Assembly (NCBI GenBank): GCA_022702935.2
Contig: JAKIML020000016.1
Coordinates: forward strand, 1-35,768
Reading direction: 5' to 3'
DNA from: Bacillota bacterium
GTDB taxonomy: Bacteria; Bacillota; Clostridia; DSM-8532
Length of the DNA stretch: 35,768 nt
Within the stretch, counting starts at the first letter, position 1. Each line of letters opens with the position of its first letter. Below are positions 1-27,299 of the stretch, in pieces. The translations under genes were made by a program, and so were the position numbers. The notes beneath the pieces were generated by a model, which did not search any database, was not told the origin of the DNA, and saw nothing but the letters and a program-made list of their open reading frames with translations.

Positions 1-210
1 TTGAGGTCCGTACCCAGCAGGAACGCCGCCCCAGAATTTTAAAAGCACGGGTTCCTTGGCATTACCGGAATTGGGTGATTGGGAAGGTGAAGCGGATCCT
101 GAGGAGGGTGACTGTGCCGGATTTTGATTTCCCGAAGCATTTCCGCAGGCTGCAAAGGCGGTTATCATCATAACCAATGCTAAGAGAAGGGTAAGTACTC
201 TTTTCAACAT
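1..210 (-). CDS. Partial lipoprotein, probable sugar-ABC solute-binding protein (N-terminus only)
   Basis: The visible 70 codons read leftward from an ATG at 208-210 and run off the window edge without a stop. They begin with two basic residues, a hydrophobic stretch and a lipobox (AFAAC, Cys22), so the mature protein should be lipid-anchored outside the membrane. A Ser/Pro/Asn/Gln-rich linker (residues 23-52) follows, then the start of a folded domain (VLLKFWGG) typical of extracellular solute-binding proteins that feed sugar ABC importers. The start is backed by an excellent ribosome site, GGGAGG, seven bases upstream. It lies just downstream of a YesM/YesN-type two-component system, which in Bacillota commonly controls such importers. 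The lipoprotein assignment is firm. The sugar-binding role is inferred from 18 residues and context, and the substrate is unknown. Confidence 0.78.
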   Translation of the reverse strand, partial: MLKRVLTLLLALVMMITAFAACGNASGNQNPAQSPSSGSASPSQSPNSGNAKEPVLLKFWGGVPAGYGPQ

Positions 211-2036: not shown

Positions 2037-3863
2037 TTAAGCCTCTCCCCCCGCTTCTTTATTCATGCATTTGATGGGCAGATGATAGTCCACCCGGGCC
2101 CCGCCCGTCTCCCCGTTTGAAAGCTCTATACCGTATTCCTTGCCAAAGGCTATACGTATACGCTCATCAATAATGTCCAGGCCTATACCCAAATGCTCTC
2201 GGGCATTACCGCTGCCCTCTCTTCTTTGATAGAAGATCTCTATACTTTCTTTGCTGAAGCCTTTTCCGTTATCGGAGATGGTGACCAGAAGCCGATCATT
2301 ATCCCTCCATGCGCCGATATGGATGAGCCCGCCCCGGGTATCGGGTGAAAAAGCATGCTTGAAAATGTTCTCAACCACGGGCTGCAGAATGAACTTAATA
2401 ATCAGCAGATCCTTGACCGAATCCTCCAGATCCACTTCAAGGGTGTAAGAGTTTCCAAAGCGCATATTTTGGATATGGCAATAGCTTTTAATGATAGATA
2501 TCTCCTGGTCCAAAGGAACCAGCTCATCATTCTTGGTCATGCTGTATTTAAGAATTTCGGCCAGCGCATCAATACTTTCTCTGATATTGTCAGCCTTTCG
2601 GATAATGGCCATCCAACGGATGGTATTCAAGGTGTTAAACAGAAAGTGGGGGCTCATCTTGGAGCGCAAGGACTCAAACTGGTACTTTTCCTTGATCCGC
2701 TGCTCCTGGGTAAGCCGCTTAAACAGGTCGTTGATATGTGAAGACATGGTATAGAAGGATTGATAGATATCCCCTATTTCATCCTTTCGTCCCACCTCCA
2801 GGGCAACGGGCTGCTCACCTACCCGATAGCGCTTCATAAGTCCTGATAAAACCCGGATAGGTCGGGCTATCCAGCGGGCTATAAAAATTGCTATGATAAA
2901 CAAAACGGCTATAAAAATGAGACTCAGGGTATTAATTTTAATCAATAGGTTGTTCATTTGATTCTGGATATTCTGATAATCGGTAAAATAAAAGATCTTC
3001 AACTGTTTTTGGGAGTAAATGCTGCTCAGGCTGATGGTGTAATAGCTTAAAAGATACCTTCTGCCTTTCTGAGCGATAATGTCATTACCTTCCCTTTCAC
3101 CATTGTAGGCAGTAAGAAGCTGGGTCAGTTCCTCTTCTGAAAGAAATTCATTGTTATTGAACAGGACTGCTCCCTCCTGAGTAAGGGCGCAAATAGAGTC
3201 TAAATCCGAGTATTTGTATTTATTAAGGATACTAAAAACATACTCATGATCAATGCTGAGGATAATGGTGCCCAGCCTTTTATCCGAATGGTCATCATTC
3301 ATGATGGACCGGGCCAGGGATATGTGTTTTCCTGGCTTCTCATCAAGAAATTCAAAGCCGTCAGTGGACAGCTTCCACAGGATATAGCCCTTGGCGGAAA
3401 TACTGTCCTTAACCCAGTCCTGATCCAGGATATAGGCAATATCCTTGTTGTTAAGGCTCCAATTGGCATAGGTTTGTTTCTCTCTGTCAAAAAAGGTCAC
3501 ATGGGTATTTTCCAGAAAACTGTCATAGAGATTCTGCATGGAGATTTCATTTAAAACATTATTAAAGACCACAGCCCTGTCATAATAGGATTGGTCCTCG
3601 TCATTAAAGGTCCGGGCAAAATCCGGATCACGAAAAAATACATTAGATATGCTAATCATCCGTCCAAGAACCTGGCTTATCTCGTTTTCGCTTTTTGAGA
3701 TGTTCTGTACAACCTTAAGGCTTATCTCTTCCCGAAGAACAGCCTCCATATCGCTTTTTACGTACTGGAGCATCAGCGAAAAGGGAAACAGTATCAATAA
3801 TGCAATGATTAGAAATATCCTTAAAGATAGACTGAGCCTTTTTGTAAAAATCACACGCTTCAC
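2037..3863 (-). CDS. Membrane sensor histidine kinase (YesM-like)
   Basis: The 608-residue kinase has a first membrane helix at about residues 12-35, a large extracytoplasmic sensor region to about 300, a second membrane helix at about 305-325, and a HAMP linker (ARPIRVLSGL onward). It then has a HisKA_6-type dimerisation and phosphoacceptor region with SPHFLFNTLN, phospho-His406, and a GHKL ATPase domain with VVENIFKHAF, DNGKGF and GIGLDIIDERI. This is the YesM class, which pairs with YesN-type AraC response regulators. The GTG start at 3861-3863 overlaps the stop of the upstream PocR-AraC gene by four bases, and the stop lies one base before the response regulator, so the three genes form one tight operon. 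The extracellular domain probably senses a carbohydrate or the binding-protein complex. That ligand is inference. Confidence 0.93.
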   Translation of the reverse strand: MKRVIFTKRLSLSLRIFLIIALLILFPFSLMLQYVKSDMEAVLREEISLKVVQNISKSENEISQVLGRMISISNVFFRDPDFARTFNDEDQSYYDRAVVFNNVLNEISMQNLYDSFLENTHVTFFDREKQTYANWSLNNKDIAYILDQDWVKDSISAKGYILWKLSTDGFEFLDEKPGKHISLARSIMNDDHSDKRLGTIILSIDHEYVFSILNKYKYSDLDSICALTQEGAVLFNNNEFLSEEELTQLLTAYNGEREGNDIIAQKGRRYLLSYYTISLSSIYSQKQLKIFYFTDYQNIQNQMNNLLIKINTLSLIFIAVLFIIAIFIARWIARPIRVLSGLMKRYRVGEQPVALEVGRKDEIGDIYQSFYTMSSHINDLFKRLTQEQRIKEKYQFESLRSKMSPHFLFNTLNTIRWMAIIRKADNIRESIDALAEILKYSMTKNDELVPLDQEISIIKSYCHIQNMRFGNSYTLEVDLEDSVKDLLIIKFILQPVVENIFKHAFSPDTRGGLIHIGAWRDNDRLLVTISDNGKGFSKESIEIFYQRREGSGNAREHLGIGLDIIDERIRIAFGKEYGIELSNGETGGARVDYHLPIKCMNKEAGGEA

Positions 3864-4756
3864 CTCTTGATGCTGCTTCTGTACTGGGAGGGTGATTGTC
3901 CGGTTATTCTTTTAAATACACTGGAGAAGTAGTTGGGGTCCGAAAACCCACATTTTCCTGAAATCTCAAAAAAACTGTCCTGTGTTTTATGGATTAAGTC
4001 CTTGGCCTTATCAATACGGACCTGGTTGATATATTGATTAATACTCTGATTCATTCCGGCTTTAAAGATATGGCTCAGATAGGATTCACTGCAATGACAA
4101 AAAGAAGCTATATCCTTAATCTTAATGTCATTGGCATAGTTAATGCGGATATATTCAATGGCGTTGGACAAATGATAGACGCGGCTGGCGTCAGTGGAAT
4201 TGATGCTGTAACGGGAGATTTCTCCGGCATTTAACAGGCTCCTGTAAACCATGATAAAATACTCCACCAGAATTCCACACAAGCGCATGGCCTTCTCATG
4301 GTCGGGAGCCTTGCCTGAAACGGTATTTTTGTAAAGACGCAGGGCTTTTTCTTTATCCATTCTGTATTTTACTGAGATCTTGGCAATGCGATGATGGGCT
4401 CGCCTTTCATTACCTTCAAAGCCATAGAGGCATATGGCTGCAATGGCCCTGTCTTCATGCTTGACGGGAATGACCATTTCACTGACCCCACAGTAACAGG
4501 TTCCTACAAAATACCCCTCACTGACTTCGCATTTTCGGTGCAACAGGCGGGTATTGTCCAGACAGCGGTCCCAGAGCTCTTTGTTGGATTTTATATACAT
4601 GCAGAAGGATGAGCGGTGGATATAGTAGGCATTCAAATCATTGGCTAAATCAGGATCCTTGGGTATAAATCCGACGAAGTCCTTGATAGCTAACTGGCAT
4701 CCTAATTCGGAAACGAGATATCTTACGTACCCCAGAACATTTGAATATCTGCTCAA
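3860..4756 (-). CDS. AraC-family regulator with N-terminal PocR-type sensory domain
   Basis: The protein has 298 residues. Residues about 10-165 resemble the PocR ligand-binding fold, with Cys/His-containing stretches such as CLDNTRLLHRKCEV and GTCYCGVSEMVIPV. Residues about 200-298 are a standard AraC double helix-turn-helix (FCHCSESYLSHIFKAGMN, CGFSDPNYFSSVFKRITG, SPSQYR). PocR-type domains are known to bind small organic ligands in the cytoplasm. The start is TTG (4754-4756), and I see no better in-frame ATG or strong ribosome site, so the exact start is uncertain. It is the first gene of the leftward regulatory operon and overlaps the kinase by four bases. It is transcribed divergently from the FAD oxidoreductases, which are obvious candidate targets. 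Having a one-component and a two-component AraC regulator in one operon suggests internal and external sensing of the same nutrient. Confidence 0.85.
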   Translation of the reverse strand: MSRYSNVLGYVRYLVSELGCQLAIKDFVGFIPKDPDLANDLNAYYIHRSSFCMYIKSNKELWDRCLDNTRLLHRKCEVSEGYFVGTCYCGVSEMVIPVKHEDRAIAAICLYGFEGNERRAHHRIAKISVKYRMDKEKALRLYKNTVSGKAPDHEKAMRLCGILVEYFIMVYRSLLNAGEISRYSINSTDASRVYHLSNAIEYIRINYANDIKIKDIASFCHCSESYLSHIFKAGMNQSINQYINQVRIDKAKDLIHKTQDSFFEISGKCGFSDPNYFSSVFKRITGQSPSQYRSSIKR

Positions 4757-5087: not shown

Positions 5088-6905
5088 ATGAGTGACAAGA
5101 GAAATCAGACCAAAAAATATGATGTAGTGGTGGTCGGCGGTGGTATGTCGGGAATATGCGCCGCTCTGGCATCCTCGCGTCATGGAGCCAAAACCGCCCT
5201 CATTCAGGCACGTCCCGTTCTCGGAGGCAATGCAAGCTCTGAGATGAGAATGCATATTACCGGAGCCAACTGTCATCTGGGGAAGACCGATCTTCAGGAG
5301 ACGGGGATTCTAATGGAAATTCTTTTAGAGAATAAACGTAGAAACCCCTATCAAACCTTCGCCATCTGGGATTCGGTCCTTTGGGAAAAGGTCCGCTATC
5401 AGGAAAACCTGGACCTATACCTCAATACCTCCATGGACGAAGCCTATACCGAGGGCAGCAAAATTACCTCCATTCTTTGTCACCAAATCAGCACTGAGAC
5501 CACCTACCATTTCTATGCTGATATTTTTGTGGATGCTACTGGTAATGGTTCCTTAGGCATGTATGCCGGGGCTGAGTTTCGCATGGGAAGCGAGGGTAAG
5601 GCGGAATTCAATGAGCCTAATGCACCCGATGAACCCAACAGTACCACCATGGGCAACACCCTCATGTTCATCGCCGAGGACATGGGTGAGCCAGTACCCT
5701 TCAAAAAACCCGACTGGGCTTATACCTTTACCGAAGAGGATTTGATTTTCCGAGGACATGGCAACATGACCATAAGCCATGGTGAAAACGGGGTTCAGGA
5801 GCTCTACAATGCCGATTCAGGCTATTGGTGGATAGAACTTGGCGGAACCAGCCACGACATCATCGGTGATCATGAGATCATTACCGAAGAGCTTTATAAA
5901 TGCGTCTATGGTATATGGGATCATATTAAAAACAGCGGAGATCATGGTGCCCAAAACTATGCCCTGACCTGGGTGGGCTCGGTTCCCGGTGTAAGAGAAA
6001 GCCGCCGCCTTGTGGGGGACTACTTATTGACCGAAAACGATGTGGCCGGCAACCGTATTTTTGAGGATGCAGTGGCCTATGGCGGTTGGCCCATGGATGA
6101 GCACCCGCCCCATGGTCTTTTCCATAAAGGCTATCCCGTTCGCTATATCAACTTCCCAGGCGCCTATACCATTCCTTATCGCTGTTATTATTCGAAAAAT
6201 ATAGACAATCTGATGATGGCCGGCAGAAATATCAGCACCACAAAAATGGCCCTGGGCTCTACCCGGGTTATGGGAACCTGTGCAGTGGGCGGCCAGGCGG
6301 TAGGAACAGCCGCAGCCATGGCGATCAAATATGGCTGCACTCCCCGGCAAATCGGTCAGCATATGGACGAGCTTCAACAGACGCTTTTAAAGGACGACTG
6401 TTATATTCCGGGCTATAAAAATACCGATACTAAGGATCTGCTTTTAGAGGCCTCGGTCTCGGCTTCCAGCTTTCTTTCTGGTTGTGAGCCTGAAATGGCC
6501 ATTAGTGGTGTGACCCGCAGGGTGGGAAATGCCCAGAACTGCTGGGAGTCCCAGGGTATTTCGGAGCATGGTGAATCCCTTGTCTTTAAGCTTCCATCAA
6601 TTAAGCCCGTCTCCCAGATCAGGGTTACCTTCGACCCCAACCTTACCCTTGAAATCGCCCCTTCTATTACCCGGAAGGTAGTTGAGCGCCAGGTCAAGGG
6701 TATGCCCAAAGAGCTTGTTAAAGATTATAGGCTATTGATTTATAACGGGGAGCAACTGGTTTATTCTCAGGACTTTACTGACAACTATCAGCGGCTAAAT
6801 GTTCACCATTTGTCCCAGGCCATGCTGGGTGATCGGATTGAAATTAAAGTTTTCAGCACTCATGGCTATCCCAACGCCAGAGTTTTTGAAGTTAGAGCCT
6901 ATTGA
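5088..6905 (+). CDS. FAD-dependent oxidoreductase with C-terminal discoidin-like domain (copy 1)
   Basis: The 605-residue protein has a Rossmann dinucleotide-binding motif at residues 15-28 (VVGGGMSGICAALA), the following LGGNASSEMRMH segment, and a second FAD-contacting segment near residues 385-415 (GSTRVMGTCAVGGQAVGTAAAMA). This matches the FAD_oxidored (PF12831-like) family. Residues about 455-605 look like a beta-sandwich of the F5/8 type C kind. There is no signal peptide, so it should act in the cytoplasm. Members of this family often lie in sugar-utilisation loci, but I know of no defined reaction for this subgroup. The ATG is preceded by AGGAGG. It is the first gene of a two-gene operon with a paralogue 10 bp downstream and is divergent from a PocR-AraC regulator. 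A sugar or glycoside redox substrate is inference. Confidence 0.85.
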   Translation: MSDKRNQTKKYDVVVVGGGMSGICAALASSRHGAKTALIQARPVLGGNASSEMRMHITGANCHLGKTDLQETGILMEILLENKRRNPYQTFAIWDSVLWEKVRYQENLDLYLNTSMDEAYTEGSKITSILCHQISTETTYHFYADIFVDATGNGSLGMYAGAEFRMGSEGKAEFNEPNAPDEPNSTTMGNTLMFIAEDMGEPVPFKKPDWAYTFTEEDLIFRGHGNMTISHGENGVQELYNADSGYWWIELGGTSHDIIGDHEIITEELYKCVYGIWDHIKNSGDHGAQNYALTWVGSVPGVRESRRLVGDYLLTENDVAGNRIFEDAVAYGGWPMDEHPPHGLFHKGYPVRYINFPGAYTIPYRCYYSKNIDNLMMAGRNISTTKMALGSTRVMGTCAVGGQAVGTAAAMAIKYGCTPRQIGQHMDELQQTLLKDDCYIPGYKNTDTKDLLLEASVSASSFLSGCEPEMAISGVTRRVGNAQNCWESQGISEHGESLVFKLPSIKPVSQIRVTFDPNLTLEIAPSITRKVVERQVKGMPKELVKDYRLLIYNGEQLVYSQDFTDNYQRLNVHHLSQAMLGDRIEIKVFSTHGYPNARVFEVRAY

Positions 6906-6915
6906 AAGGAATGTG

Positions 6916-8781
6916 ATGGTTATGAGAACATCTCGCAGATATATGGAAAAGAACTTTGATGTGATTGTGGTAGGCGGAGGTCTTGCAGGAACCTGTGCTG
7001 CCATTGCATCTGCCCGGCATGGTGCCAAAACAGCCCTTATTCAGAACCGTTCAGTACTCGGCGGAAATTGCAGCTCTGAAATCCGCATGCATATTGTGGG
7101 TGCAAGCTGCCATCTGGCAAAGCTCAATGCCGCAGAAACAGGAATTGTAGAAGAACTCCTGCTTGAGAATAAAAACATTAATGTAACCCAATCCTTCCCC
7201 ATCTGGGATACCCTGCTCCTTCAAAAGACCCGAGCCACCAAGAACCTGGAAGTCTTTTTAAACACCCATATGCACCATGCTGAGACCCAGGAGGGAAGCA
7301 TTACTGCCATCTACTGTCACCAAACCACTACCGAAACCGATCTAAAGCTTAATGCCAGGATATTCATCGATTGTACCGGACATGGAACCTTGGGTTATCT
7401 GGTGGGCGCCGAAACCCGAAGCGGCAGTGAGTCCATCCATGAGTTTAATGAGCCCAATGCACCCCAGGAGCCCAATCAGTTTACCATGGGCAATACGCTC
7501 ATGTTCCAGGCCATTAACCGGGGAGAGCCGGTCAAGTTTATCAAGCCTTTCTGGGCTTACAGCTTTTCTGAGGAGGATCTGAAGCACAGGAAGCACTACA
7601 ATTGTGTCACAGCCTTTGCTGATGGCGGTGCCACCACAGAGTTTGTGGAGGGAGAAGCCAAAGCACTTCCCGAGTTTTCAGCCATGGACGCTGGTTATTG
7701 GTGGATTGAGCTGGGAGGTAAGTATGACGACATCATTGCCGACGGAGAAATTATTCGTGATGAGCTGTTAAAGTGCGTCTATGGCGTTTGGGATCATATC
7801 AAGAACTGTGGGGATCACGGCGCCGAGAACTATGATCTGGTCTGGGTGGGCATGGTTCCTGGTTATCGGGAAAGCCGTCGTCTTGTAGGGGATTATTTGC
7901 TCACCGAAAACGATATCCGCGCCAATAAGGTCTTTGAGGATGCGGTGGCTTACGGCGGATGGCCCATGGATGAGCATGTGCCTGGTGGGATCATGGACTT
8001 TGATAAATTCCCTTCCCGTATTCTTAACTTTGACGGCCTGTATACGATTCCTTACCGCTGCTACTATTCCAAAAACATTCCCAATCTCATGATGGCTGGG
8101 CGGAATATCAGCACCACAAAAATGGCCTTTGGCAGCACACGGGTCATGGGCACCTGTGCCGTAGGCGGCCAGGCTGCTGGTACTGCGGCAGCGCTTGCCA
8201 TTAAGTACCAATGCACACCCAGAGAGGTTCATCAGCATATGGATGAGCTCCAGCAAACCCTTTTAAAAGATGATTGTTATATCCCCGGGTACAAAAATAC
8301 CGATCCCTGTGATCTCGCCCGTGAGGCCAAGGTCACGGCATCCGGTTATAAGCAAGGCTTTGAACCTGAGAATGTCATTAACGGCATATCCCGTACGGTG
8401 GGAAATAACTCAAATCTCTGGGAGTCCCTGCCCCTGGACCAGGGTGTTCAAACACTGACCCTGGAACTGGAGAGCTTTAAGAAAATCCAAGAAATACGCC
8501 TGACCTTTGACCCCAACTTAAATCAGGAGATTATGCCCTCCATCACCCATCAGGTCAAAAACCGCCAGGTAAAAGATCTCCCGCCGGAACTGGTCAGGGA
8601 TTATGAGGTGACCTTCTATTACGGGGCCAAGGTTGTCCATAGCCTTCATATTAATGATAATTACCAAAGGCACAATGTTATTGCCCTTCCCTCGCCGGTT
8701 ACGGCTGATCGGGTAGAGATCAAAGTTCTGGCAACCTATGGCTATCCTGCGGCAAGGATATTTGAAGTCAGACTATACTAA
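6916..8781 (+). CDS. FAD-dependent oxidoreductase with C-terminal discoidin-like domain (copy 2)
   Basis: This is a 621-residue paralogue of the preceding gene, alignable along its whole length and identical at more than half of positions by eye. It has the Rossmann motif (VVGGGLAGTCAAIA, about residues 18-31), LGGNCSSEIRMH, NEPNAPQEPN, MAGRNISTTKMA and a C-terminal beta-sandwich-like region from about residue 470. Insertions around residues 230-250 (FADGGATTEFVEGEAKALPEF) and near GGIMDFDKFPS distinguish it from copy 1. The ATG at 6916 is chosen because an AAAGGA ribosome site ends five bases upstream and it follows copy 1's stop. The ATG at 6922 is also possible. The open frame extends back to 6799 but those residues have no counterpart in copy 1. 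It may be a second catalyst for a related substrate or a heteromeric partner. Confidence 0.84.
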   Translation: MVMRTSRRYMEKNFDVIVVGGGLAGTCAAIASARHGAKTALIQNRSVLGGNCSSEIRMHIVGASCHLAKLNAAETGIVEELLLENKNINVTQSFPIWDTLLLQKTRATKNLEVFLNTHMHHAETQEGSITAIYCHQTTTETDLKLNARIFIDCTGHGTLGYLVGAETRSGSESIHEFNEPNAPQEPNQFTMGNTLMFQAINRGEPVKFIKPFWAYSFSEEDLKHRKHYNCVTAFADGGATTEFVEGEAKALPEFSAMDAGYWWIELGGKYDDIIADGEIIRDELLKCVYGVWDHIKNCGDHGAENYDLVWVGMVPGYRESRRLVGDYLLTENDIRANKVFEDAVAYGGWPMDEHVPGGIMDFDKFPSRILNFDGLYTIPYRCYYSKNIPNLMMAGRNISTTKMAFGSTRVMGTCAVGGQAAGTAAALAIKYQCTPREVHQHMDELQQTLLKDDCYIPGYKNTDPCDLAREAKVTASGYKQGFEPENVINGISRTVGNNSNLWESLPLDQGVQTLTLELESFKKIQEIRLTFDPNLNQEIMPSITHQVKNRQVKDLPPELVRDYEVTFYYGAKVVHSLHINDNYQRHNVIALPSPVTADRVEIKVLATYGYPAARIFEVRLY

Positions 8782-8836
8782 CCAAATTTTCATACCCACC
8801 AGGCGAAGGGTTTACTCTGCTGTTATAGTTTTATTG

Positions 8837-8861
8837 GGCCGTCCCGCAAAGGCGGCCTTTT
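8837..8861 (+). terminator. Intrinsic terminator after the FAD oxidoreductase operon
   Basis: GGCCG-T-C pairs with G-G-CGGCC (stem 8837-8843 with 8851-8857, one G-T pair) around a 7-base loop, followed by TTTT. It closes the two-gene operon 55 bp after the stop codon. Confidence 0.7.
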
Positions 8862-8975: not shown

Positions 8976-10637
8976 ATGAAGATCAAGTTTCTGGGTGCGG
9001 CTACATCGGTAACCGGCTCTTCTCATCTCATCACAACCCAAAAACACAAGATCTTGCTGGATTGCGGCATGTTCCAGGGGAACGACGAAATAGAGGCCTT
9101 GAATCGGGAGCCTTTTGATTTTGATCCCAGTGAAATAGATTTTGTTATTCTGAGCCACGCCCATATTGATCACAGCGGACGGCTTCCGTTATTGGTCAAG
9201 CGGGGCTATAAAGGCCAGATCTACTGCACCGACGCAACCGCCGACCTTTTGGATATCATGCTCAAGGACAGCGGATACATTCAGGAGCGTGAAGCCGAAT
9301 GGAGGAACAAAAAGAATCAGCGTAAAGGAAAACCCTTAGTCGAGCCGCTGTATACCTTCAATGACGCGCAGGCTGCCTTGAAGCAAGTGCGGCCGGTTCT
9401 TTACAACCAGCTTATCGAGCTTGATCCCGATTTAAAAATCGTCTTTAATGATGCGGGGCATGTACTGGGCTCATCCATTGTCGAGCTCTTTATCAAGGAG
9501 GATGACAATGTCTCTAAAATTGTGTTCTCCGGCGATTTAGGCATGAAGAACAGGCCCATTCTCCGGGATCCTACCATTATTAAGAAGGCCGATTATCTGA
9601 TTATGGAAACGACCTATGGTAATCGGGTTCATGAGAAGAATGCCTCCAGCATAGAAAAGCTCATAGAAATCGTTCTCAAGACCACTAAGCGGGGCGGCAA
9701 TGTCATTATTCCCTCCTTTGCCGTGGGACGGACCCAGGAGCTTATCTTTGAGTTCAACCGTTTTTATGAAGAGCATTCGGAGTACAGAGATGCCCTGAGC
9801 AATATCATGGTCTATATCGACAGCCCCATGGGCGCATCGGCCACTGAGGTATTCAGAAGGAATGCCCAGGTCTTTGACGATGAGATGAAGGCTTATATTC
9901 TTCAGGGAGATAACCCCCTGGACTTTAAAAACCTGAAATTCACTCGCACCAGTGAGGATTCCATGGCCCTGAACCAGGATCCCAGCCCAAAAATCATCAT
10001 CTCCTCCAGCGGTATGTGCGAAGCTGGACGGATTAAGCACCATCTTAAGCATAACCTGTGGAATCCCAAATCCAGCATTGTCTTTGTAGGCTATCAGGCA
10101 GAGGGAACCCTGGGCAGAGCCCTGGTCAATGGGAGCAAGGTAGTCACCATCTTTGGCGAGAAAATCAATGTTGAAGCCGAGATTTACAATTTGGAAGGAT
10201 TCTCGGGCCACGCTGACAGGAACGGCCTTTTGGAATGGCTCTCCGGCTTCCGGGTTAAACCCCACCGGATCTTCTTAGTCCATGGCGAGGAGGAGTCCAA
10301 AAGGGATTTTGCCAGAACTGTCAAGGAGACCCTTGGTTTTGATTGCACAGTGGTCAACAAGGTTTCTGAGTACACCCTATCCCATGAAAGCATACAGACT
10401 GAGGAGGAAATCCTTCAGGAGCGTGTTTCCCCGGAGGCCCTGGCCGAGATTAAGAATAGAATTGCTAACCTTCACGATTTTTTGGAAACCATTCTTTACA
10501 ATACCCGCTTAGCCATGGGCTCCAATCTCTCCCCTGATCAGGTTACCGAGATTAACAACATCCTTCTGGGGCTTGAAAAGAATATTATCAATCTGGGTTC
10601 TGCCGTAACACGGGAATCCAACCCTTTTGTAGAATGA
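8976..10637 (+). CDS. Beta-CASP metallo-beta-lactamase protein (RNA-processing exonuclease type)
   Basis: The 553-residue protein starts with the MBL fold (MKIKFLGAATSVTGSSHL) and the zinc motif HAHIDH at residues 61-66. GHVLGSSI and SGDLG follow, then a beta-CASP domain containing IPSFAVGRTQELIFEF, and finally the RMM segment with SSSGMCEAGRIKHHL and GFSGHADRNGL. This is the CPSF73/YSH1-like family, known for RNA endonuclease or exonuclease activity, and is distinct from RNase J by sequence. About 80 C-terminal residues after the RMM domain (EEEILQERV onward) form a helical extension. It probably shares a transcript with the polymerase gene that begins four bases after its stop. The substrate RNA is unknown, and the link to the neighbouring polymerase may be only co-transcription. 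Confidence 0.88.
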   Translation: MKIKFLGAATSVTGSSHLITTQKHKILLDCGMFQGNDEIEALNREPFDFDPSEIDFVILSHAHIDHSGRLPLLVKRGYKGQIYCTDATADLLDIMLKDSGYIQEREAEWRNKKNQRKGKPLVEPLYTFNDAQAALKQVRPVLYNQLIELDPDLKIVFNDAGHVLGSSIVELFIKEDDNVSKIVFSGDLGMKNRPILRDPTIIKKADYLIMETTYGNRVHEKNASSIEKLIEIVLKTTKRGGNVIIPSFAVGRTQELIFEFNRFYEEHSEYRDALSNIMVYIDSPMGASATEVFRRNAQVFDDEMKAYILQGDNPLDFKNLKFTRTSEDSMALNQDPSPKIIISSSGMCEAGRIKHHLKHNLWNPKSSIVFVGYQAEGTLGRALVNGSKVVTIFGEKINVEAEIYNLEGFSGHADRNGLLEWLSGFRVKPHRIFLVHGEEESKRDFARTVKETLGFDCTVVNKVSEYTLSHESIQTEEEILQERVSPEALAEIKNRIANLHDFLETILYNTRLAMGSNLSPDQVTEINNILLGLEKNIINLGSAVTRESNPFVE

Positions 10638-15620: not shown

Positions 15621-16475
15621 CTATTTTACATTATTTAGCAACAGATCGATAATTCTGTCAAACTCATCTTCGGAGTAATACTCCAATACAATTTTTCCTT
15701 TTCCCTTGCCTCTGACAAGATCAATCTTGGTTCCGTAGAGTGAACGAAGCTTTTCTTCAAGATCCTTCATCTCCACGTCCACCTTCCTGGCGGGTTTTTT
15801 AACGGGGCTGACCTTTTTGTCTTCCTGAGCAGCCAGCTTCTCAGTCTCGCGAACATTGAGATTTTTTTCAATAATCTCATTGGCCAGGGCCAATTGACGG
15901 GTAGTATCATTAATGGTTACAAGGTTCCTTGCATGTCCGCTGGTGAGCCTTCCATCCGATATCATTTCTTTGATTGGCTCGGAAAGGTTAAGCAATCTCA
16001 CCGAGTTAGCTATGGCAGCTCGGCTCTTTCCAACCACCCGGGCGACTTCCTCCTGGGTCAGTCCATACTCCTCCATGAGCTTTTGATAGGCCTCTGCTTC
16101 TTCAATGGGATTCAGATCCTCTCTCTGCAGGTTCTCTATCAGTGCAATTTCCATGACTTCCCGAGAGGAAAGATCCTTAACAACCACTGGGATTGTTTTG
16201 AGCCCAGCTATTTTTGAGGCACGCCATCTTCTTTCACCAGCCACTATGATATAGCGTTGGCCTTCCTTACGCACCAGAATGGGCTGCACCACACCATGAT
16301 CCTTTATAGACTGAGCCAGTGCTTCCAGCTTCTCCTGATCAAAAACCTTACGCGGCTGATCCTGATTGGGCTCCACGTCATTGATTTTTACCTCAAGCAC
16401 ACTGTTCTTTGTATCCTCCAGGGCATTGACGGAACTGATAAGTGCGTCCAAACCTTTTCCTAAACCCTTTTTCAT
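15621..16475 (-). CDS. parB: Chromosome-partitioning protein ParB (Spo0J)
   Basis: This 284-residue CTP-dependent DNA clamp has an N-terminal CTPase domain with QPILVRKEGQRYIIVAGERRWRA (the GERRxRA nucleotide motif), IENLQREDLNPIEEA, a central helix-turn-helix (LTQEEVARVVGKSRAAIANSVRLL) that recognises parS, and a C-terminal dimerisation segment ending in LLLNNVK. It loads at parS, spreads and recruits condensin to organise the origin. The ATG lies immediately after the parA stop, with GGAGGA inside the end of parA, so the pair is coupled. Two perfect parS sites occur within 2 kb upstream. It is a different branch from the noc-like gene at 31487, which is also present. Confidence 0.95.
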   Translation of the reverse strand: MKKGLGKGLDALISSVNALEDTKNSVLEVKINDVEPNQDQPRKVFDQEKLEALAQSIKDHGVVQPILVRKEGQRYIIVAGERRWRASKIAGLKTIPVVVKDLSSREVMEIALIENLQREDLNPIEEAEAYQKLMEEYGLTQEEVARVVGKSRAAIANSVRLLNLSEPIKEMISDGRLTSGHARNLVTINDTTRQLALANEIIEKNLNVRETEKLAAQEDKKVSPVKKPARKVDVEMKDLEEKLRSLYGTKIDLVRGKGKGKIVLEYYSEDEFDRIIDLLLNNVK

Positions 16476-17246
16476 TTATATTTCCTCCGAACTCATGATA
16501 ACTTCTTCTGCCAATTCCATATAACATTCGGCACCCTTGGATTTCTCATCATAGAGAATAATGGGCAGACCATAGCTTGGGGCCTCGCTTAAGCGTACAT
16601 TACGAGGAATAATGGTTCTATACACCTTGTTGCCGAAATATTTCTTGACTTCCTCCACCACTTGAATGGATAAATTGGTTCTGGCATCAAACATGGTCAG
16701 TACCACACCCTCTACCCGAAGGGATTTGTTCAGATGCTTTTGAACAATCTTCACCGTGTTCATCAACTGGCTTAGACCTTCCAGTGCATAATATTCGCAC
16801 TGAATGGGAACAAGGATGGTATCCGCTGCCGTCAGTGAATTAACTGTCAGCAATCCCAGTGAGGGCGGACAGTCAATGATAATAAAATCAAATTTATCCT
16901 TAATATCTTCAAGGGCTACCTTTAACCGGGATTCTCTTGAATAAACAGAGACCAGCTCCACTTCTGCACCGGCAAGATTGATATTTGAGGCTGATAAGTA
17001 CAGATTATTAACCTTGGTTTCGATGAGGGTTTCTTCTATGGGTGTCTCGTTGATAATAACATCATAAATGGAATTTTCAACGGTATTTTTATCAACGCCA
17101 AGACCACTGGTTGTATTTCCTTGAGGGTCAATGTCAATGACAAGAACTTTTTTATTCTTAACGGCAAGGCATGCACTCAAATTTACAGCGGTTGTCGTTT
17201 TACCAACACCACCCTTTTGGTTGGCAACTGCAATGATCTTAGCCAT
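16476..17246 (-). CDS. parA: Chromosome-partitioning ATPase ParA (Soj)
   Basis: The 256-residue deviant-Walker ATPase has KGGVGKTTTAVNLS with K11 and K16, the switch region FIIIDCPPSLGLLTVNSL, and DARTNLSIQVVEEVKKYFGNKVYRTIIPRNVRLSEAPS, all typical of chromosomal Soj proteins. It dimerises on nucleoid DNA with ATP, is stimulated by ParB, and in Bacillota also influences DnaA activity. GAGGTG precedes the ATG. A promoter directly abutting a parS site lies upstream, suggesting ParB-dependent autoregulation. In many Bacillota this gene follows noc. Here it follows gyrB across a 1.1-kb gap, one of the two signs of an origin-core inversion. Confidence 0.95.
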   Translation of the reverse strand: MAKIIAVANQKGGVGKTTTAVNLSACLAVKNKKVLVIDIDPQGNTTSGLGVDKNTVENSIYDVIINETPIEETLIETKVNNLYLSASNINLAGAEVELVSVYSRESRLKVALEDIKDKFDFIIIDCPPSLGLLTVNSLTAADTILVPIQCEYYALEGLSQLMNTVKIVQKHLNKSLRVEGVVLTMFDARTNLSIQVVEEVKKYFGNKVYRTIIPRNVRLSEAPSYGLPIILYDEKSKGAECYMELAEEVIMSSEEI

Positions 17247-17299
17247 AAAACACCTCGTATAATAATGCTTTGATTTATCATTCTTTTTGGAGCATACCT

Positions 17300-17327
17300 A
17301 TTATATCACAAATTAAGTGAAAGTGAA
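17300..17327 (-). promoter_or_regulatory. parA-parB promoter
   Basis: Reading leftward there is an extended -10, TGATATAAT (TATAAT at 17300-17305), and a weak -35, TTCACT (17322-17327), with a 16-bp spacer. The -35 touches the parS site at 17328-17343, so ParB bound there should compete with RNA polymerase. Confidence 0.6.
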
Positions 17328-17343
17328 TGTTTCACGTGAAACA
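17328..17343. promoter_or_regulatory. parS: parS centromere site 1
   Basis: TGTTTCACGTGAAACA is a perfect 16-bp palindrome and an exact match to the bacterial parS consensus. It lies 81 bp upstream of parA and directly abuts the parA promoter. Confidence 0.95.
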
Positions 17344-17847
17344 AATCTGGTAGATTGGCTTAATCAACGGTTTCATAAATTTTTATTGCCTTATGTGATT
17401 TGAAACAAGATCCGTAATAGGACATACCTTATATAGATACTCGCATAACTTATTGATTTATATAATTTGTTTATGATTTCTCCTACCTCTTTCAACCACA
17501 TATCACACTTTCGGATTTATGGAATATATTCGTTCATTTATTGATAAGGATAAAAAACACGCGGGTTACAGCCTATCTTAAGCAAATACCGCTTATGCTT
17601 ATATTTATATAGTAAAAAATTAACTATCACTCTTATTTTTTAACTCTCTTCTATTTCATACACTGATTATTATGTTTTGATTTCTCGCTGAAGTCTCTTT
17701 GTCATTTCACTTTCTCGACACACTTAAAAATAGATACCAGAAGACCGAGTAGTCTTCAGACCAATCTAAATTTATAAACTTTAAATACATGTCCCCAGGC
17801 CTCATTTGACCATAAAAAGTTACACTATAAATGCAATATAGATATTA

Positions 17848-17868
17848 CTATGATATTGAATATCATAG
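17848..17868. repeat. Perfect 21-bp palindrome
   Basis: CTATGATATT, one central G, then AATATCATAG gives ten uninterrupted base pairs. As a one-base loop it cannot form a good hairpin, so a protein-binding site is likelier than an RNA structure. It lies near the middle of the parS-bounded gap. The binding factor is unknown. Confidence 0.6.
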
Positions 17869-18013
17869 ACTTTACTGCATTCTTATCATGTAATGTAGTA
17901 TTATACTTCATAATTCGTCATATTAGCATCTTATATGGGTCTTTTATGACAGGGGTAAAACGGATAGATTATAGATGGAGTACACATTCATATTTGCAGG
18001 ACATAATAAGATG

Positions 18014-18049
18014 AAAAAAAGAAGTAGAGAGTTTTCATCTATCTACTTC
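18014..18049 (-). terminator. Leftward intrinsic terminator in the parS-bounded gap
   Basis: On the minus strand GAAGTAGA pairs with TCTACTTC (18042-18049 with 18021-18028) and is followed at once by seven T residues (18014-18020). It lies about 320 bp beyond the gyrB stop, which already has its own terminator, so it may be a backup or the end of an unannotated small RNA. Confidence 0.6.
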
Positions 18050-18322
18050 TCAGGCTTCATTCGATCTGACTATTTGATATAATCACTTCTTTTGATATTC
18101 ATTAATATCGTGCTTTTTACAAACATCTAAATAAAATCATAATGGGATATTGTTTACTTAGACCTTTGGATTTGTTTTCAAAGTACAGATATTCTTGATG
18201 TGAATTCAATGCCTACTGTTTTAACGAGATCCTAAATATATATTTGAAACTGACTTCATACTCTTCGATTCAGATACGTATAGTAATATATCTTCACCAT
18301 CTATTCCCGTCCAAACCATAAA

Positions 18323-18338
18323 TGTTTCACGTGAAACA
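18323..18338. promoter_or_regulatory. parS: parS centromere site 2
   Basis: A second perfect copy of TGTTTCACGTGAAACA lies 995 bp from site 1 and 32 bp downstream of the gyrB stop. It forms the U-tract side of the gyrB terminator. Confidence 0.95.
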
Positions 18339-18366
18339 AAAGGGAAGGATTCTTCTCCTTCCCTTT
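18333..18366 (-). terminator. gyrB intrinsic terminator overlapping parS site 2
   Basis: On the minus strand AAAGGGAAGGA pairs perfectly with TCCTTCCCTTT (18356-18366 with 18339-18349) around a six-base loop. The T-rich tail TTGTTTCAC runs into parS site 2. Confidence 0.8.
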
Positions 18367-18370
18367 CTTT

Positions 18371-20582
<2,212 letters not shown>

Positions 20583-20622
20583 AGAACCACCCTATCAATT
20601 TTAGTCTAGTTTTCAAATCCGG

Positions 20623-21738
20623 TCAACTTTTCAAGGAAACGCACCCATTCTCTACAAAAAACCTGGTGACCGCTTTTCCCTTTATGCCGGAATAAGGAAC
20701 ATCATCGGTTGCAGTAATTAAAGTCTGAACATCATACAATCCTTCCAGAAGATATTCCTGTCGTTTGGTATCAAGTTCGGACATCACATCATCCAATAGC
20801 AGCACAGGCTTTTCTCCTCGAATGGATTCGACAAACAGCAATTCGGATATAATCAAGGCCAGTGCCAGGCTTCTTTGCTGTCCCTGGGAACAATACTGCC
20901 TCGAATTCATATCATTGAGAAGGATTTCAAAATCATCCCTATGGGTTCCGTAAAGGCATTGTGATAATGCCATTTCCTTTGCCATATTTTTATCCAACTT
21001 CTGTCTTAATGCTTCTTCAAAATCCTCTGGCCCAAAGGATGCATCCATAGGACAAAAAGTCTTATAGATCAACTGTGATAGTTCTTTTCCGCTGGATATA
21101 TGATGAATCTCATGCTGCATGTATTGGTTCAGTCTTTCAATGGTCTTCATTCGCGTATAAGCAATCCTGCTTCCGAATTGCGCCAATTGCTCATTCCAAA
21201 CAGGGATGACATCCTTGTATTTTTGCTCCCCACTGGATTTCTTCAGGGCAAGGGACTTGTTTTTTATGATCCCGTTATACTGCTGAAGATTGTGCAGATA
21301 CTGTCGATTGGTCTGGCAGAGCAATACATCGATGAATTTTCTTCTTTCTGCAGGAGAACCCTTGACAACATCAAGGGTTTCCGGAGAAAAAAGTATCATA
21401 TTGAGGGTTCCGAGAATATCTGACAGCTTGCTTCGCTTTATGCCATTGATTTCTGCATATCGTCCCTTTTCTTTTGCATACTTAATGACAATATCTGTTG
21501 GACGTTGATCAATCAAAGCCTCGAGCTTTATCTCAAAGCCCGTCTGTCCATACTGAATCAGATCATTATAATTATTGCTGCGATGGGACTTGCCGGTGGC
21601 GGCAATATATAATGCCTCCAACACATTGGTTTTACCCTGGGCATTTTGTCCGAACAGGAGATTGATGCCTTCGCCAAAAGCAATAACCTGTTTATTGTAA
21701 TTTCTGAAATGAGAAAGCTCGATGGATTTGATAATCAC
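20623..21738 (-). CDS. recF: DNA replication and repair protein RecF
   Basis: The 371-residue SMC-like ATPase has Walker A GQNAQGKTNVLEALY (about residues 30-44), a signature region (YCSQGQQRSLALALIISEL) and Walker B LLLDDVMSELD. It binds single-strand/double-strand junctions and helps load RecA at gapped or stalled forks with RecO and RecR. It opens MIIKSIELSHFRNY, a standard RecF start, and overlaps the stop of the S4-domain gene by four bases (ATGA). Its length is normal. Confidence 0.96.
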   Translation of the reverse strand: MIIKSIELSHFRNYNKQVIAFGEGINLLFGQNAQGKTNVLEALYIAATGKSHRSNNYNDLIQYGQTGFEIKLEALIDQRPTDIVIKYAKEKGRYAEINGIKRSKLSDILGTLNMILFSPETLDVVKGSPAERRKFIDVLLCQTNRQYLHNLQQYNGIIKNKSLALKKSSGEQKYKDVIPVWNEQLAQFGSRIAYTRMKTIERLNQYMQHEIHHISSGKELSQLIYKTFCPMDASFGPEDFEEALRQKLDKNMAKEMALSQCLYGTHRDDFEILLNDMNSRQYCSQGQQRSLALALIISELLFVESIRGEKPVLLLDDVMSELDTKRQEYLLEGLYDVQTLITATDDVPYSGIKGKAVTRFFVENGCVSLKS

Positions 21739-21959
21739 TTTTCTTCACCGGCCTGGGTGATGACGTATTCCTTGCCCAGAACCTTGACGCGATCATTAGG
21801 CCTGAGTTTTCTGCCGCGTCTTGTCTCCTTTTCATCATTGACGAAAATATCATTTTCAAAGATGAAAAGACGTGCCTCTCCCCCTGTGCCTATGATGTTC
21901 GCCAGTTTTAAAAACTGATCCAGCTTGATATATTCTGTTGTAATGGGGACATTTATCAT
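21735..21959 (-). CDS. S4-domain RNA-binding protein (YaaA/RlbA family)
   Basis: The 74-residue protein is almost entirely an S4 RNA-binding fold: IKLDQFLKLANIIGTGGEARLFIFENDIFVNDEKETRRGRKL. It is the small protein encoded between dnaN and recF across Bacillota, called YaaA in Bacillus and linked there to the ribosome. The ATG at 21957-21959 is favoured because AAAGGGG lies eight bases upstream. An in-frame GTG at 21968 falls against that ribosome site. It overlaps recF by four bases. Confidence 0.9.
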   Translation of the reverse strand: MINVPITTEYIKLDQFLKLANIIGTGGEARLFIFENDIFVNDEKETRRGRKLRPNDRVKVLGKEYVITQAGEEK

Positions 21960-21973
21960 ATGAAGCACCCCTT

Positions 21974-23074
21974 TTAATTGCTCTTAATTCTTACAGGAAG
22001 AATCAGATAGAGATAACGATCATGGTCAACGGCTGTAATAATGCAGGGGCCGATATTGGAAGTAAAGGATATTTTGATGGTCTCATCGCTTATTACCTTC
22101 AGCGCATCAATGAAATAGCGCGGATTGAATCCAATATGAAGGTTGTTTCCGTCATTTTGAATCTTAATCTGCTCCTTGGACAAACCAATCTCGGCAGTTG
22201 ACGAAATAACAAGATTGTCATCACCAATGGTGAAACGAACAGGATACCGCTTATCGTCACTGGTTATCAGGGAGGCTCTCTCAAGGCTCTCTGCCAGCTC
22301 CTTAGTGTTAACCTGAATGACTGTCTCAAACTGTGATGGAATGTAGCGTCTGAAGTTCATAAATTCCCCGTCAAGTACGTTGGAGACAATGCGGCAATGA
22401 CTGAAGTTAAAGGATATAAGGTTTCCCGAAAGGGATATGGTCATGGCATCATTGGAGGATTCCAGAATGCGCAGGATTTCATTCATATTTTTTCCGGGAA
22501 CAACAACATTAAACTTTACATCCTCCTTGATAACAGAATGAGCCACAGCCATTCTGAAACCATCCAGAGCAACAATTCGGATTTCACCCTGATCGGCTTC
22601 TATCAGTGCACCGGTCATGATCTTTCTGTTTTCGTCGGTTCCTACTGCAAATATGGTTTGCTTGATAAGCTCCTTTAATATGGCCTGGGAGATAGAGAAG
22701 GAAAGATCTTCCTGGGAAACGGGAGGCAAAGGATAGGATTCTGCATCCATACCCTTTATTTCGAAATAGGAGTTTAAGCATTCAATGCGAACCTTGTTTC
22801 CGTCAAAGACTTCAATGGCCACCGGAGCATCTGGAAGGCGACGGATTATTTCACCGAACATCCTGGCGTTGATAACAATGGCGCCCTTTTCTTTGATATC
22901 TGCTTCAACAATGTACTCAATACCCAAGTCAAAGCAATTGCCTATCAGTTTTAATTGTTCATCGGCCTGTATGAAGATACCTTCAAGAATGGGTAATGTT
23001 GCTTTTGACATAACCGCCTTCTGAACGACATTGATAGCATCCATGAGATTCTGTTTGAGGACAATTGCCTTCAT
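21974..23074 (-). CDS. dnaN: DNA polymerase III beta sliding clamp
   Basis: The 366-residue clamp starts MKAIVLKQNLMDAINVVQKAV and ends YLYLILPVRIKSN, covering the three repeated clamp domains with the expected TLPILEGIFIQ motif near the N-terminus. As a dimeric ring it tethers polymerase III and translesion polymerases, including the DinB in this window, to DNA. GGAGG precedes the ATG by about eight bases. It follows dnaA across a 234-bp spacer that holds the likely origin and may have its own promoter there. Confidence 0.97.
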   Translation of the reverse strand: MKAIVLKQNLMDAINVVQKAVMSKATLPILEGIFIQADEQLKLIGNCFDLGIEYIVEADIKEKGAIVINARMFGEIIRRLPDAPVAIEVFDGNKVRIECLNSYFEIKGMDAESYPLPPVSQEDLSFSISQAILKELIKQTIFAVGTDENRKIMTGALIEADQGEIRIVALDGFRMAVAHSVIKEDVKFNVVVPGKNMNEILRILESSNDAMTISLSGNLISFNFSHCRIVSNVLDGEFMNFRRYIPSQFETVIQVNTKELAESLERASLITSDDKRYPVRFTIGDDNLVISSTAEIGLSKEQIKIQNDGNNLHIGFNPRYFIDALKVISDETIKISFTSNIGPCIITAVDHDRYLYLILPVRIKSN

Positions 23075-23308
23075 TTTCTTTGCCTCCGTTTTTTCCTTCT
23101 TTTTATTCAGAGATCAGTCGTAATAGTAGTAAGGGGTGTGGATTCTGTTGAAAAGTGGTTAAAAGCGTTTAATATCTTCGTTTTCGCCTGTTAAAAACTT
23201 TGTTGAAAACTCTCATGATTTCAAAGTCAACTTGTGCGCAAATTTTCGGGTCACTTTTATTCACCGTTTTTCCAAGGATAATCCACAGGATTTTGGGGAA
23301 AGTTTTCA
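23075..23308. other. oriC: Probable replication origin (oriC) in the dnaA-dnaN spacer
   Basis: The 234-bp spacer contains several near matches to the DnaA box TTATNCACA: TTATTCACC (23257-23265, plus), TAATCCACA (23279-23287, plus), GAATCCACA (23137-23145, minus), two TTTTCAACA (23146-23154 and 23201-23209, minus) and TTAACCACT (23154-23162, minus). None is perfect. Three are nearly contiguous at 23137-23162. Divergent coding of the two replication-gene blocks around 23.1-24.8 kb, and the Bacillota precedent, support an origin here. The dnaA-rpmH spacer may contribute. Confidence 0.6.
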
Positions 23309-24637: not shown

Positions 24638-24675
24638 TAGAAATTCCTCCATTTGTTTTCCTAACCGTATACTTA

Positions 24676-24704
24676 AATATATCAAACTTCGTAAAGTGTT
24701 TCAA
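24676..24704 (-). promoter_or_regulatory. dnaA promoter
   Basis: On the minus strand TTGAAA (24699-24704), a 17-bp spacer and TGA-TATATT (TATATT at 24676-24681) form a good extended -10 promoter. The -35 lies inside a 12-bp inverted repeat, GTGTT-TC-AACAC (24696-24707), a possible operator. Confidence 0.7.
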
Positions 24705-24726
24705 CACATTCGTTCTCAACAATTTC

Positions 24727-24756
24727 TTGACTTAGTGACAGATCGCATTATATAAT
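24727..24756 (+). promoter_or_regulatory. rpmH-rnpA promoter
   Basis: TTGACT (24727-24732) and a perfect TATAAT (24751-24756) with an 18-bp spacer lie about 68 bp upstream of rpmH. It stands back to back with the dnaA promoter, with 22 bp between the two -35 elements. Confidence 0.8.
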
Positions 24757-24823
24757 ATTTGCTGTGTCCCTATGGAAAGAATAATGTATTGTTATAAATA
24801 CAATTGAACGGAGGTGTCCATCC

Positions 24824-24958: not shown

Positions 24959-25008
24959 AGACCAATTATTGGTCTTTTCTTCTATGTTGCGAAAAATCAG
25001 GTAATATG

Positions 25009-25568: not shown

Positions 25569-25587
25569 TTATCCGGAGGGAAATTTA

Positions 25588-27220: not shown

Positions 27221-27230
27221 GAAATTTTGC

Positions 27231-27258: not shown

Positions 27259-27299
27259 CATAGTATCAATAAATTAAGGGACATGAGGGGATTACTTCT

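Follow-up and report, generated by a model that had tools for sequence, protein, structure and literature searches.

FAD-A and FAD-B, two adjacent genes for full-length PF12831 oxidoreductases, belong to a syntenic module with a binding-protein importer and regulatory genes. The reading that we prefer, and put forward tentatively, is that both proteins may well be cytosolic sugar oxidoreductases dedicated to this importer, following a logic like that of E. coli YcjQRS but carried out with flavoproteins. The domains of the two proteins, the fold of FAD-A, the synteny, the transporter linkage, the pairing of the genes and the age of their duplication come directly from the present analysis. The window, that is, the whole stretch of 35,768 nt that was analysed, is an entire contig, and the module occupies its left part:

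1..210, minus strand: substrate-binding lipoprotein, N-terminus, cut by the contig end
404..2035, minus strand: YesN-type response regulator with AraC helix-turn-helix (Pfam)
2037..3863, minus strand: YesM-type histidine kinase with HAMP, His_kinase and HATPase_c domains (Pfam)
3860..4756, minus strand: PocR-domain AraC regulator, divergent from FAD-A (Pfam; 63% identity with its syntenic counterpart in R. papyrosolvens)
5088..6905, plus strand: FAD-A (605 aa), oxidoreductase of PF12831 that ends in an F5/8C-fold domain (Pfam, structure model)
6916..8781, plus strand: FAD-B, paralogous to FAD-A and probably starting at 6916 or 6922
8836..8858, plus strand: terminator-like stem-loop 3' of FAD-B, a consensus match of a kind no commoner than in shuffles

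The PocR-AraC regulator, histidine kinase, response regulator and lipoprotein N-terminus that the initial annotation had named beside the pair are all present, and all lie on the minus strand. Scans for promoters and terminators gave no excess over shuffled sequence, and no repeats were found between the PocR gene and FAD-A. The open reading frame of FAD-B was listed as 6799-8781 (plus strand). Its start is probably later than 6799, since a GAAAGGA at 6904-6910 was seen by eye ahead of in-frame ATGs at 6916 and 6922, and homology begins only at about 6943.

The same annotation had described two adjacent full-length paralogues with an N-terminal FAD-type domain, and this description holds. FAD-A and FAD-B, co-directional and 63% identical, score 305.9 and 301.9 bits against PF12831 (cut-off 27), and in both the match covers model positions 1-416 of 416. 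PF12831 is likewise matched by 77 of 77 aligned homologues. In a tree, FAD-A and FAD-B fall in separate, well-supported clades, which indicates that the pair is old and has been kept; this fits equally a heteromer and action on two related substrates, the alternatives that the initial annotation had offered. As had been stated before, no signal peptide was seen by eye at either N-terminus. Searches of PDB sequences with FAD-A (phmmer) and with the 77-row profile gave, among the best 60 matches, N-terminal alignments of at most about 95 residues around the dinucleotide motif, and no close relative with an assigned substrate or activity. The best 25 NCBIfam models all scored far below their own cut-offs, and the best 50 rows from a viral structure library held flavoprotein-like and discoidin-like matches. 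No report of these proteins was found among the papers listed in searches of the open-access literature, and the reactions of PF12831 proteins seem, judged from open-access text in which a single paper mentions the accession, to be almost unassigned.

The GxGxxG motif is intact, G17, G19 and G22 being conserved in all 77 aligned homologues. In such sites the ribose is usually contacted by an acidic residue with which the second strand ends, a feature that the Pfam model does not require. After the Rossmann motif this residue is absent from the 77 aligned homologues, which carry Q (42), H (24) or N (11); at the same position the short PF12831 relatives have E in 22 cases, D in one and V in one (24 readable of 26). 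From their sequences, FAD-A and FAD-B are predicted to bind flavin and to be flavin-type oxidoreductases.

For the catalytic domain, Foldseek returned fumarate, urocanate and geranylgeranyl reductases among its neighbours, and the hosts are largely clostridial. Both observations would suit reductases for which an imported compound, for example an unsaturated or keto compound or an aglycone, serves as electron sink. We regard this explanation as distinctly unlikely: the Foldseek matches express global fold similarity at a low TM-score (~0.2-0.3 on the query), and sugar genes stand beside many of the loci.

Each protein ends in a further domain, for which the initial annotation had proposed an F5/8C reading:

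6426..6902, plus strand: F5/8C (discoidin/CBM32-fold) tail of FAD-A, residues 447-605 (structure model, fold search)
8302..8778, plus strand: F5/8C-like tail, the 159 C-terminal residues of FAD-B (position taken from the alignment to FAD-A)

PF00754 was found in FAD-B below its cut-off (E 8e-4, 19.9 bits, cut-off 28.2) and had no match in FAD-A at E<=0.1; among the 77 aligned homologues, at E<=0.01, DUF7402 was detected in 36 and PF00754 in 12. A fold search was needed, because the tail profile gave a single, non-significant match in PDB sequences (2v72, a CBM32, E 0.46). The structure model of FAD-A (pLDDT 91.8, pTM 0.93) places residues 447-605 with CBM32/F5-8C chains, at Z up to 18.9 and an rmsd of 1.8 over 126 residues (4zxe), and the tail folded alone gave a Z of 18.5. 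In its modelled structure, the tail of FAD-A is thus of the F5/8C (discoidin/CBM32) fold; the earlier reading is right as to fold, and the C-terminus did not fall in a non-carbohydrate family, the outcome that had been named as refuting it. The tail is apparently packed on the catalytic domain through a conserved linker. Fusion of a discoidin domain to a flavoprotein had been considered odd, a view that is overstated: relatives of the pair occur in 56 of the 381 sampled genomes of the class, so that the architecture is not rare. Carbohydrate binding by the tail is a possibility, and intracellular IFT25, PP25 and APC10/Doc1 appear in the same lists of fold matches as the CBM32/F5-8C chains.

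The gene order PocR regulator, histidine kinase, response regulator, binding protein (SBP) and two permeases (P1, P2), divergent from A-B, is common to the window's genome, where it spans two contigs, and to two genomes of the R. papyrosolvens genus. The second of these contigs, C117 (L109, 5,780 bp), carries the last 30 residues of a matching binding protein and two permeases that are 81% and 79% identical to those of the syntenic R. papyrosolvens locus (L014), and the locus apparently continues onto it from the window. The Pfam check for a CUT1-type importer (SBP_bac_1, BPD_transp_1) covered cluster representatives, the window's own binding protein being cut. Extension of the locus leftward had been suggested as a check for permeases and glycosidases. 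The permeases are there; a scan that covered all but five genes of the window and all but two ORFs of C117, and inspection of C117 by eye, brought no recognisable glycosidase to light. The transporter operon of the window's genome stops after the permeases, and the epimerase and alcohol dehydrogenase are located on contig C24, beside short PF12831 genes.

The sugar-uptake setting proposed earlier was borne out by the transporter linkage. The second-type permease (P2) was found in 37 of 74 homologous loci. The expected number is 10.7, based on a background of 448 matches in 57.3 Mb (18 genomes, hand-picked from those of the loci); different detectors were used for loci and background, and windows were set at 20 kb, whereas the flanks average 14.9 kb. 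These 74 loci remain of 79 after removal by hand of L024, L072, L075, L078 and L083, which had partial or irregular matches; 28 of them have less than 4 kb on one side, and ORF calling followed a crude longest-ORF rule that loses genes in G+C-rich loci. The same type of transporter (P2 65-74% identical) precedes one short and one long PF12831 gene in L062, L074, L078, L079 and L124. Lacrimispora, Hungatella and Spirochaetales have this transporter type together with a PF12831 gene pair. In L031 and L073 the order is SBP-P1-P2-flavoprotein-TIM barrel-flavoprotein; the two loci are near-identical and so count as one case. In 22 of the 74 loci a further PF12831 gene (9 long, 13 short) is located no more than 1.5 kb away, and in 20 of these 22 it is on the same strand. 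Many loci have sugar genes as neighbours, and some have FGGY kinases and short-chain and Zn dehydrogenases. The neighbour families vary from locus to locus (sulfatase, histidine phosphatase, GDPD, FGGY, URO-D, SSF, TctA), so no single substrate follows; the operon survey covered 92 of the 148 listed neighbours and the first 25 of 92 families.

An importer and two flavoproteins can form a whole module, and this bears on another explanation, hydrolase-free cleavage of an imported glycoside by the pair. The flavin would oxidise the substrate transiently, and beta-elimination, hydration and re-reduction would follow, either within a single enzyme or shared between A and B. NAD-dependent RgNanOx cleaves 2,7-anhydro-sialic acid in this manner. 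The lack of a recognised glycosidase in the genes scanned and on C117 is in its favour, as are a nan/nag gene set that adjoins the R. papyrosolvens operon and a redox-neutral keto mechanism that is on record, according to the accessible part of PMC7535918. However, that gene set may belong to a separate operon next door, with a lyase-like gene that stays below the NanA cut-offs, no nan/nag genes were recognised beside the window's locus, and distant relatives do adjoin glycosidase genes. We consider cleavage of this kind very unlikely here.

In R. papyrosolvens the operon continues with genes for a D-psicose 3-epimerase (458.7 bits against NF051856, cut-off 300), a Zn-dependent alcohol dehydrogenase (Zn-ADH) and a fructokinase-like PfkB kinase, and the same three genes were found, by blastp and by eye, in the second genome of the genus. 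The epimerase is most likely the characterised RpDAE, a D-allulose 3-epimerase that was purified and assayed, as given in the accessible part of PMC9047997. A gene identical over 293 residues to the crystallised D-psicose 3-epimerase (3VNK/3VNI) lies directly downstream of two short PF12831 genes.

The kinase and epimerase of this operon would also fit one-way dehydrogenases, acting on an imported polyol, cyclitol or sugar acid to give a ketose that is then epimerised and phosphorylated, with no cycle of oxidation, epimerisation and reduction. The kinases and dehydrogenases near some loci point the same way, as does the C24 cluster of the window's own genome, where short PF12831 genes stand with an FGGY kinase, an SDR and alcohol dehydrogenases. 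Yet the smallest modules (L062, L074, L078, L079) have neither kinase nor epimerase in the gene run, and no electron-acceptor partner was recognised beside the A-B pair among the genes scanned; one-way dehydrogenases are possible, if somewhat unlikely.

An epimerase link as a general rule was rejected. PF12831 genes were near 3 of 20 further clostridial epimerase loci and were not found near the other 17, at least four of which (L167, L170, L171, L177) are near contig ends. Of 30 epimerase loci, six had a PF12831 gene within 1.5 kb, all from the window's family and the R. papyrosolvens genus. The long flavoprotein and the epimerase co-occur in 18 genomes (odds ratio 10.5, p 8e-9, kinship ignored), and a control, fucose isomerase (fucI), was nearly as strong (40 genomes, odds ratio 7.7, p 3e-11, kinship ignored), so that the co-occurrence is not specific. 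The epimerase odds ratio was 2.6 (p 0.05) within fucI-positive genomes and 48 within fucI-negative ones; of the 8 genomes behind the latter value, 5 belong to the two lineages just mentioned, the window's family and the genus of R. papyrosolvens. Epimerase genes were listed for 391 genomes, and the flavoprotein and fucI for 381, taken as a subset of these.

The preferred reading, sugar oxidoreductases serving the importer, has its model in E. coli ycjNOPQRS, which interconverts D-gulosides and D-glucosides, YcjQRS acting to oxidise, epimerise and reduce. In the scheme that we infer, with its substrate class, direction of reaction, order of steps, regulation and role of the tail, a small sugar or sugar derivative would enter through the binding-protein importer encoded alongside, and the module would be switched on by its regulators, PocR-AraC and YesM/YesN. 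FAD-A and FAD-B would reversibly oxidise a ring or chain hydroxyl to a ketone, the most likely chemistry. In fuller modules a TIM-barrel epimerase would invert the carbon adjoining the ketone, and a second oxidoreductase, flavoprotein or Zn-alcohol dehydrogenase, would close the cycle, so that an unusual sugar unit would become a common one. The F5/8C tail would probably shape or screen the substrate site or hold subunits together. In a stronger form, which we think unlikely, two PF12831 enzymes and a TIM-barrel epimerase would be a flavoprotein counterpart of YcjQRS that turns imported rare-sugar units into common ones without net redox change. The Ruminiclostridium D-allulose 3-epimerases used in industry would then really be keto-sugar epimerases of such flavoprotein pathways.

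Through the syntenic module, PF12831 proteins are tied to a single importer and, in the case of R. papyrosolvens, also to an epimerase that has most likely been purified and assayed before, which makes the PF12831 reaction directly testable. If the scheme is true, it would give this group's D-allulose 3-epimerases a physiological setting and add a flavin route to YcjQRS-type sugar interconversion.

Compared with PF12831 FAD_oxidored proteins at large, FAD-A and FAD-B match the model over its full length and differ by the extra C-terminal F5/8C-fold domain; all 77 aligned homologues carry Q/H/N at the position that is E/D in 23 of 24 readable short relatives. The tail, as modelled in FAD-A, shares the fold of CBM32 and F5/8C domains, and is found in a protein without a recognisable signal peptide. 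RpDAE (accessible part of PMC9047997) and 3VNI are encoded in operons with PF12831 genes, and are partners, not relatives, of A and B. The proposed reaction resembles that of the GMC-family glycoside 3-oxidases (accessible part of PMC10646112), flavin oxidation of a sugar hydroxyl, but theirs is a different protein family, with no GMC among the Pfam hits of FAD-A and FAD-B at E<=0.1.

In comparison with the ycjNOPQRS genes (names and order from RefSeq annotation), the permeases are distant homologues (26-30% identity), and so are, in R. papyrosolvens, the Zn-ADH (24%) and the epimerase, whose alignment to YcjR shows 27% identity over 234 residues (E 2e-18). No ycj protein, YcjQ and YcjS included, matches FAD-A (blastp, E 1e-3), YcjN has no match to the binding proteins here (E 1e-3), and the TIM barrel of L073 has none to YcjR. 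The ycj gene order is absent from the window's genome, where the epimerase lies elsewhere. It is found in L031/L073 (binding protein, two permeases, oxidoreductase, TIM barrel, oxidoreductase), where the flanking oxidoreductases are PF12831 proteins with F5/8C tails, not YcjQ or YcjS.

The contig carries FAD-A and FAD-B, two PF12831 paralogues in tandem, beside regulatory genes and the start of a lipoprotein gene on the opposite strand:

Window 5088-6905, plus strand: FAD-A, 605 aa
Window 6916 (or 6922)-8781, plus strand: FAD-B, start placed by eye
Left of FAD-A, minus strand: PocR-AraC regulator, YesM-type kinase, YesN-type regulator
Left of FAD-A, minus strand: lipoprotein, first 70 residues

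The paralogues are 63% identical and both cover the PF12831 model end to end; by eye, the likely ribosome site of FAD-B overlaps the FAD-A stop. FAD-A was modelled with AlphaFold from a 77-row alignment (FAD-A, FAD-B, the second R. papyrosolvens copy and 74 loci), giving a pLDDT of 91.8 and a pTM of 0.93. The F5/8C-like C-terminal tail proposed in the initial annotation was borne out for FAD-A: in the modelled structure, residues 447-605 form an F5/8C (discoidin) sandwich, whose top match in a fold search was the chitosan-binding module 4zxe (Z 18.9, rmsd 1.8, 126 aligned), and the tail modelled by itself scored Z 18.5. CBM32 modules were common among the matches. Such a fold does not imply sugar binding, because the intracellular proteins IFT25 (Z 17.2), PP25 (16.6) and APC10/Doc1 (15.4, with the tail alone) match as well. 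The high pTM, together with linker positions D437, N445, D447 and D450 conserved at 91-99% in the 77 rows, suggests a rigid two-domain enzyme rather than a tethered module.

Across the 77 rows, 54 of 605 positions are invariant. The catalytic domain (440 positions) contributes 50 of these, including the candidate catalytic residues E52, H56, H224, D278, R306, R307, D337 and H339; the tail (159 positions) contributes four, namely G474, R477, R569 and G593. Of 55 columns invariant in the remaining 75 rows, FAD-A differs at one (S for A, position 30) and FAD-B at none, so that, judged from sequence, neither looks like a dead copy. FAD/NAD Rossmann folds usually have E or D past the glycine motif. 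The column of FAD-A residue Q40 instead holds Q in 42, H in 24 and N in 11 of the 77 aligned homologues. Among the 24 short PF12831 relatives that could be read at the equivalent position, 23 have E or D and one a V that reflects a shift in the reading. Family membership thus makes FAD binding likely, though not certain.

A scan of named genomes confirmed at least 573 relatives in at least 592 matched stretches; the 79 loci kept come from Clostridia, Spirochaetota, a Coriobacteriia and a Photobacterium. Within the class Clostridia, 56 of 381 sampled genomes had a match at E<=1e-150, and 55 of 62 matched places reached model position 580 of 609 or further, into the tail. The family is thus widespread and patchy. 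No match at E<=1e-100 was found in the 13 other genomes searched of the window's genus, three of them 81-86% complete. FAD-A and FAD-B fall in separate clades in a quick tree (SH-aLRT 98 and 99), and the duplication is therefore older than the split of the genomes of the window, R. papyrosolvens C7 (L014) and another member of that genus (L123).

These last two, whose FAD-A proteins are 92% identical, share the regulator, kinase, response regulator, binding lipoprotein and two permeases, divergent from FAD-A and FAD-B. The leftward extension for permeases suggested in the initial annotation yielded two, on C117 (5,780 bp) of the same 3.17-Mb genome, of which the window is a complete contig, C50. 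At the end of C117, 30 residues match, at 73%, the C-terminus of the binding protein in R. papyrosolvens, followed by permeases 81% and 79% identical to those of R. papyrosolvens, then two ORFs; from this synteny we infer that C117 joins the window. Two genes past the permeases is a long open-ended ORF (C117 1-2754), whose start looks TIR-like by eye (FDAFISYRHSE).

Replication-origin-type genes (ParB, ParA, GyrB, SMC/RecF-like, DnaN, DnaA, RnpA, YidC-type, GyrA) occupy window 15621-35179, so the flavoprotein locus is probably close to the origin. The protein at 8976-10637 has a beta-CASP metallo-beta-lactamase fold and scored below cut-off with both the type VII CRISPR Cas14 model (453.6 bits, cut-off 800) and the archaeal aCPSF1 model (333.4, cut-off 580.2). 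A third long flavoprotein copy in the window's genome (C19 58850-59202; L112:8850-9203) is broken off by the contig end and seems to continue on C85 1-726, the two pieces matching residues 9-124 (78%) and 123-242 (74%) of the same L056 protein. The C85 piece is fused in frame to the C-terminal portion of a permease, which would fit a deletion of the DNA between them, or possibly an assembly error.

In Lacrimispora (L062), Hungatella (L078, L079), Spirochaetales (L074) and a genome assigned to the R. papyrosolvens genus (L124), a transporter of the same type as in the syntenic loci (second permease 65-74%) lies ahead of a short and a long PF12831 gene, the short proteins being 58-76% identical to one another. 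The constant part of these modules is one importer plus two flavoproteins. Among 74 loci, 37 have a permease of the second type, versus about 11 expected, and 22 a second PF12831 gene within 1.5 kb, 20 on the same strand. More distant relatives of the long form have fucose isomerase, GH94, GH28-like and heparinase-like genes as neighbours (L216; L217 alike by eye); in L215, GH127 and arabinofuranosidase genes are a few kb away.

The minus-strand operon of R. papyrosolvens extends further, as does that of L123, to genes for a D-psicose 3-epimerase and a Zn-ADH and for a PfkB kinase most similar to fructokinases. In R. papyrosolvens a nan/nag-type set comes next on the same strand: NagA, NagB, a ROK protein, N-acetylmannosamine-6-P epimerase, another importer (by eye) and a sialate-lyase-like gene that scores under the NanA cut-offs. 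RpDAE, the characterised D-allulose 3-epimerase of R. papyrosolvens C7, is reported to share 59% identity with the enzyme of C. cellulolyticum (PDB 3VNI; PMC9047997). In another genome (G016), an epimerase directly 3' of two short PF12831 genes equals 3VNK/3VNI letter for letter over 293 residues; against this protein the R. papyrosolvens operon copy shows 59% identity and the second copy in that genome 94%, which makes RpDAE most likely the one in the operon. The window's genome has its epimerase (60%) and Zn-ADH (75%) on C24, beside short PF12831 genes. A cluster on the same contig (74000-104000), which the R. papyrosolvens genus has kept, holds at least five short PF12831 genes, with a kinase/regulator pair, an importer, an FGGY kinase, an SDR and alcohol dehydrogenases (partly by eye).

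In three further genomes of the window's family (L166, L168, L173) the epimerase likewise lies beside short PF12831 genes; the remaining 17 of 20 loci examined, some cut short, showed no PF12831 gene nearby. Long flavoprotein and epimerase co-occurred in 18 genomes, with an odds ratio of 10.5 (p 8e-9). The figures for a fucose-isomerase control were similar, at 40 genomes and an odds ratio of 7.7 (p 3e-11), so the association mostly reflects sugar-using genomes. A general rule was rejected on both counts; the link is physical and lineage-bound.

In two near-identical loci, L031 and L073, the binding protein and both permeases are followed by two long flavoproteins with a TIM barrel between them, assigned to PF01261 by a scan of L073. 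The proposed mechanism is modelled on the E. coli YcjQRS set: a flavoprotein would oxidise a hydroxyl to a ketone, the adjoining carbon would be epimerised, and a second oxidoreductase would reduce the ketone. This scheme would account for the flavoprotein pairing, the R. papyrosolvens epimerase and ADH, and the L031 order; it would also account for the lack of a recognised glycosidase or electron acceptor with the pair among the genes scanned. It does not account for modules lacking an epimerase, and would fit the window's only if that module draws on the C24 epimerase. The flavoproteins may simply oxidise a polyol or sugar acid, may reduce an electron sink, or may carry out redox-neutral bond cleavage.

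The locus is a real, conserved sugar module, uncharacterised as far as searches show; its parts are ordinary and their combination new. For oxidation, epimerisation and reduction the comparison is with E. coli: the L031/L073 gene order is that of ycjN-O-P-Q-R-S, for which the RefSeq annotation names read guloside to glucoside, and YcjQ and YcjS are described as dehydrogenases and YcjR as a 3-keto-glucoside isomerase (PMC11543891).
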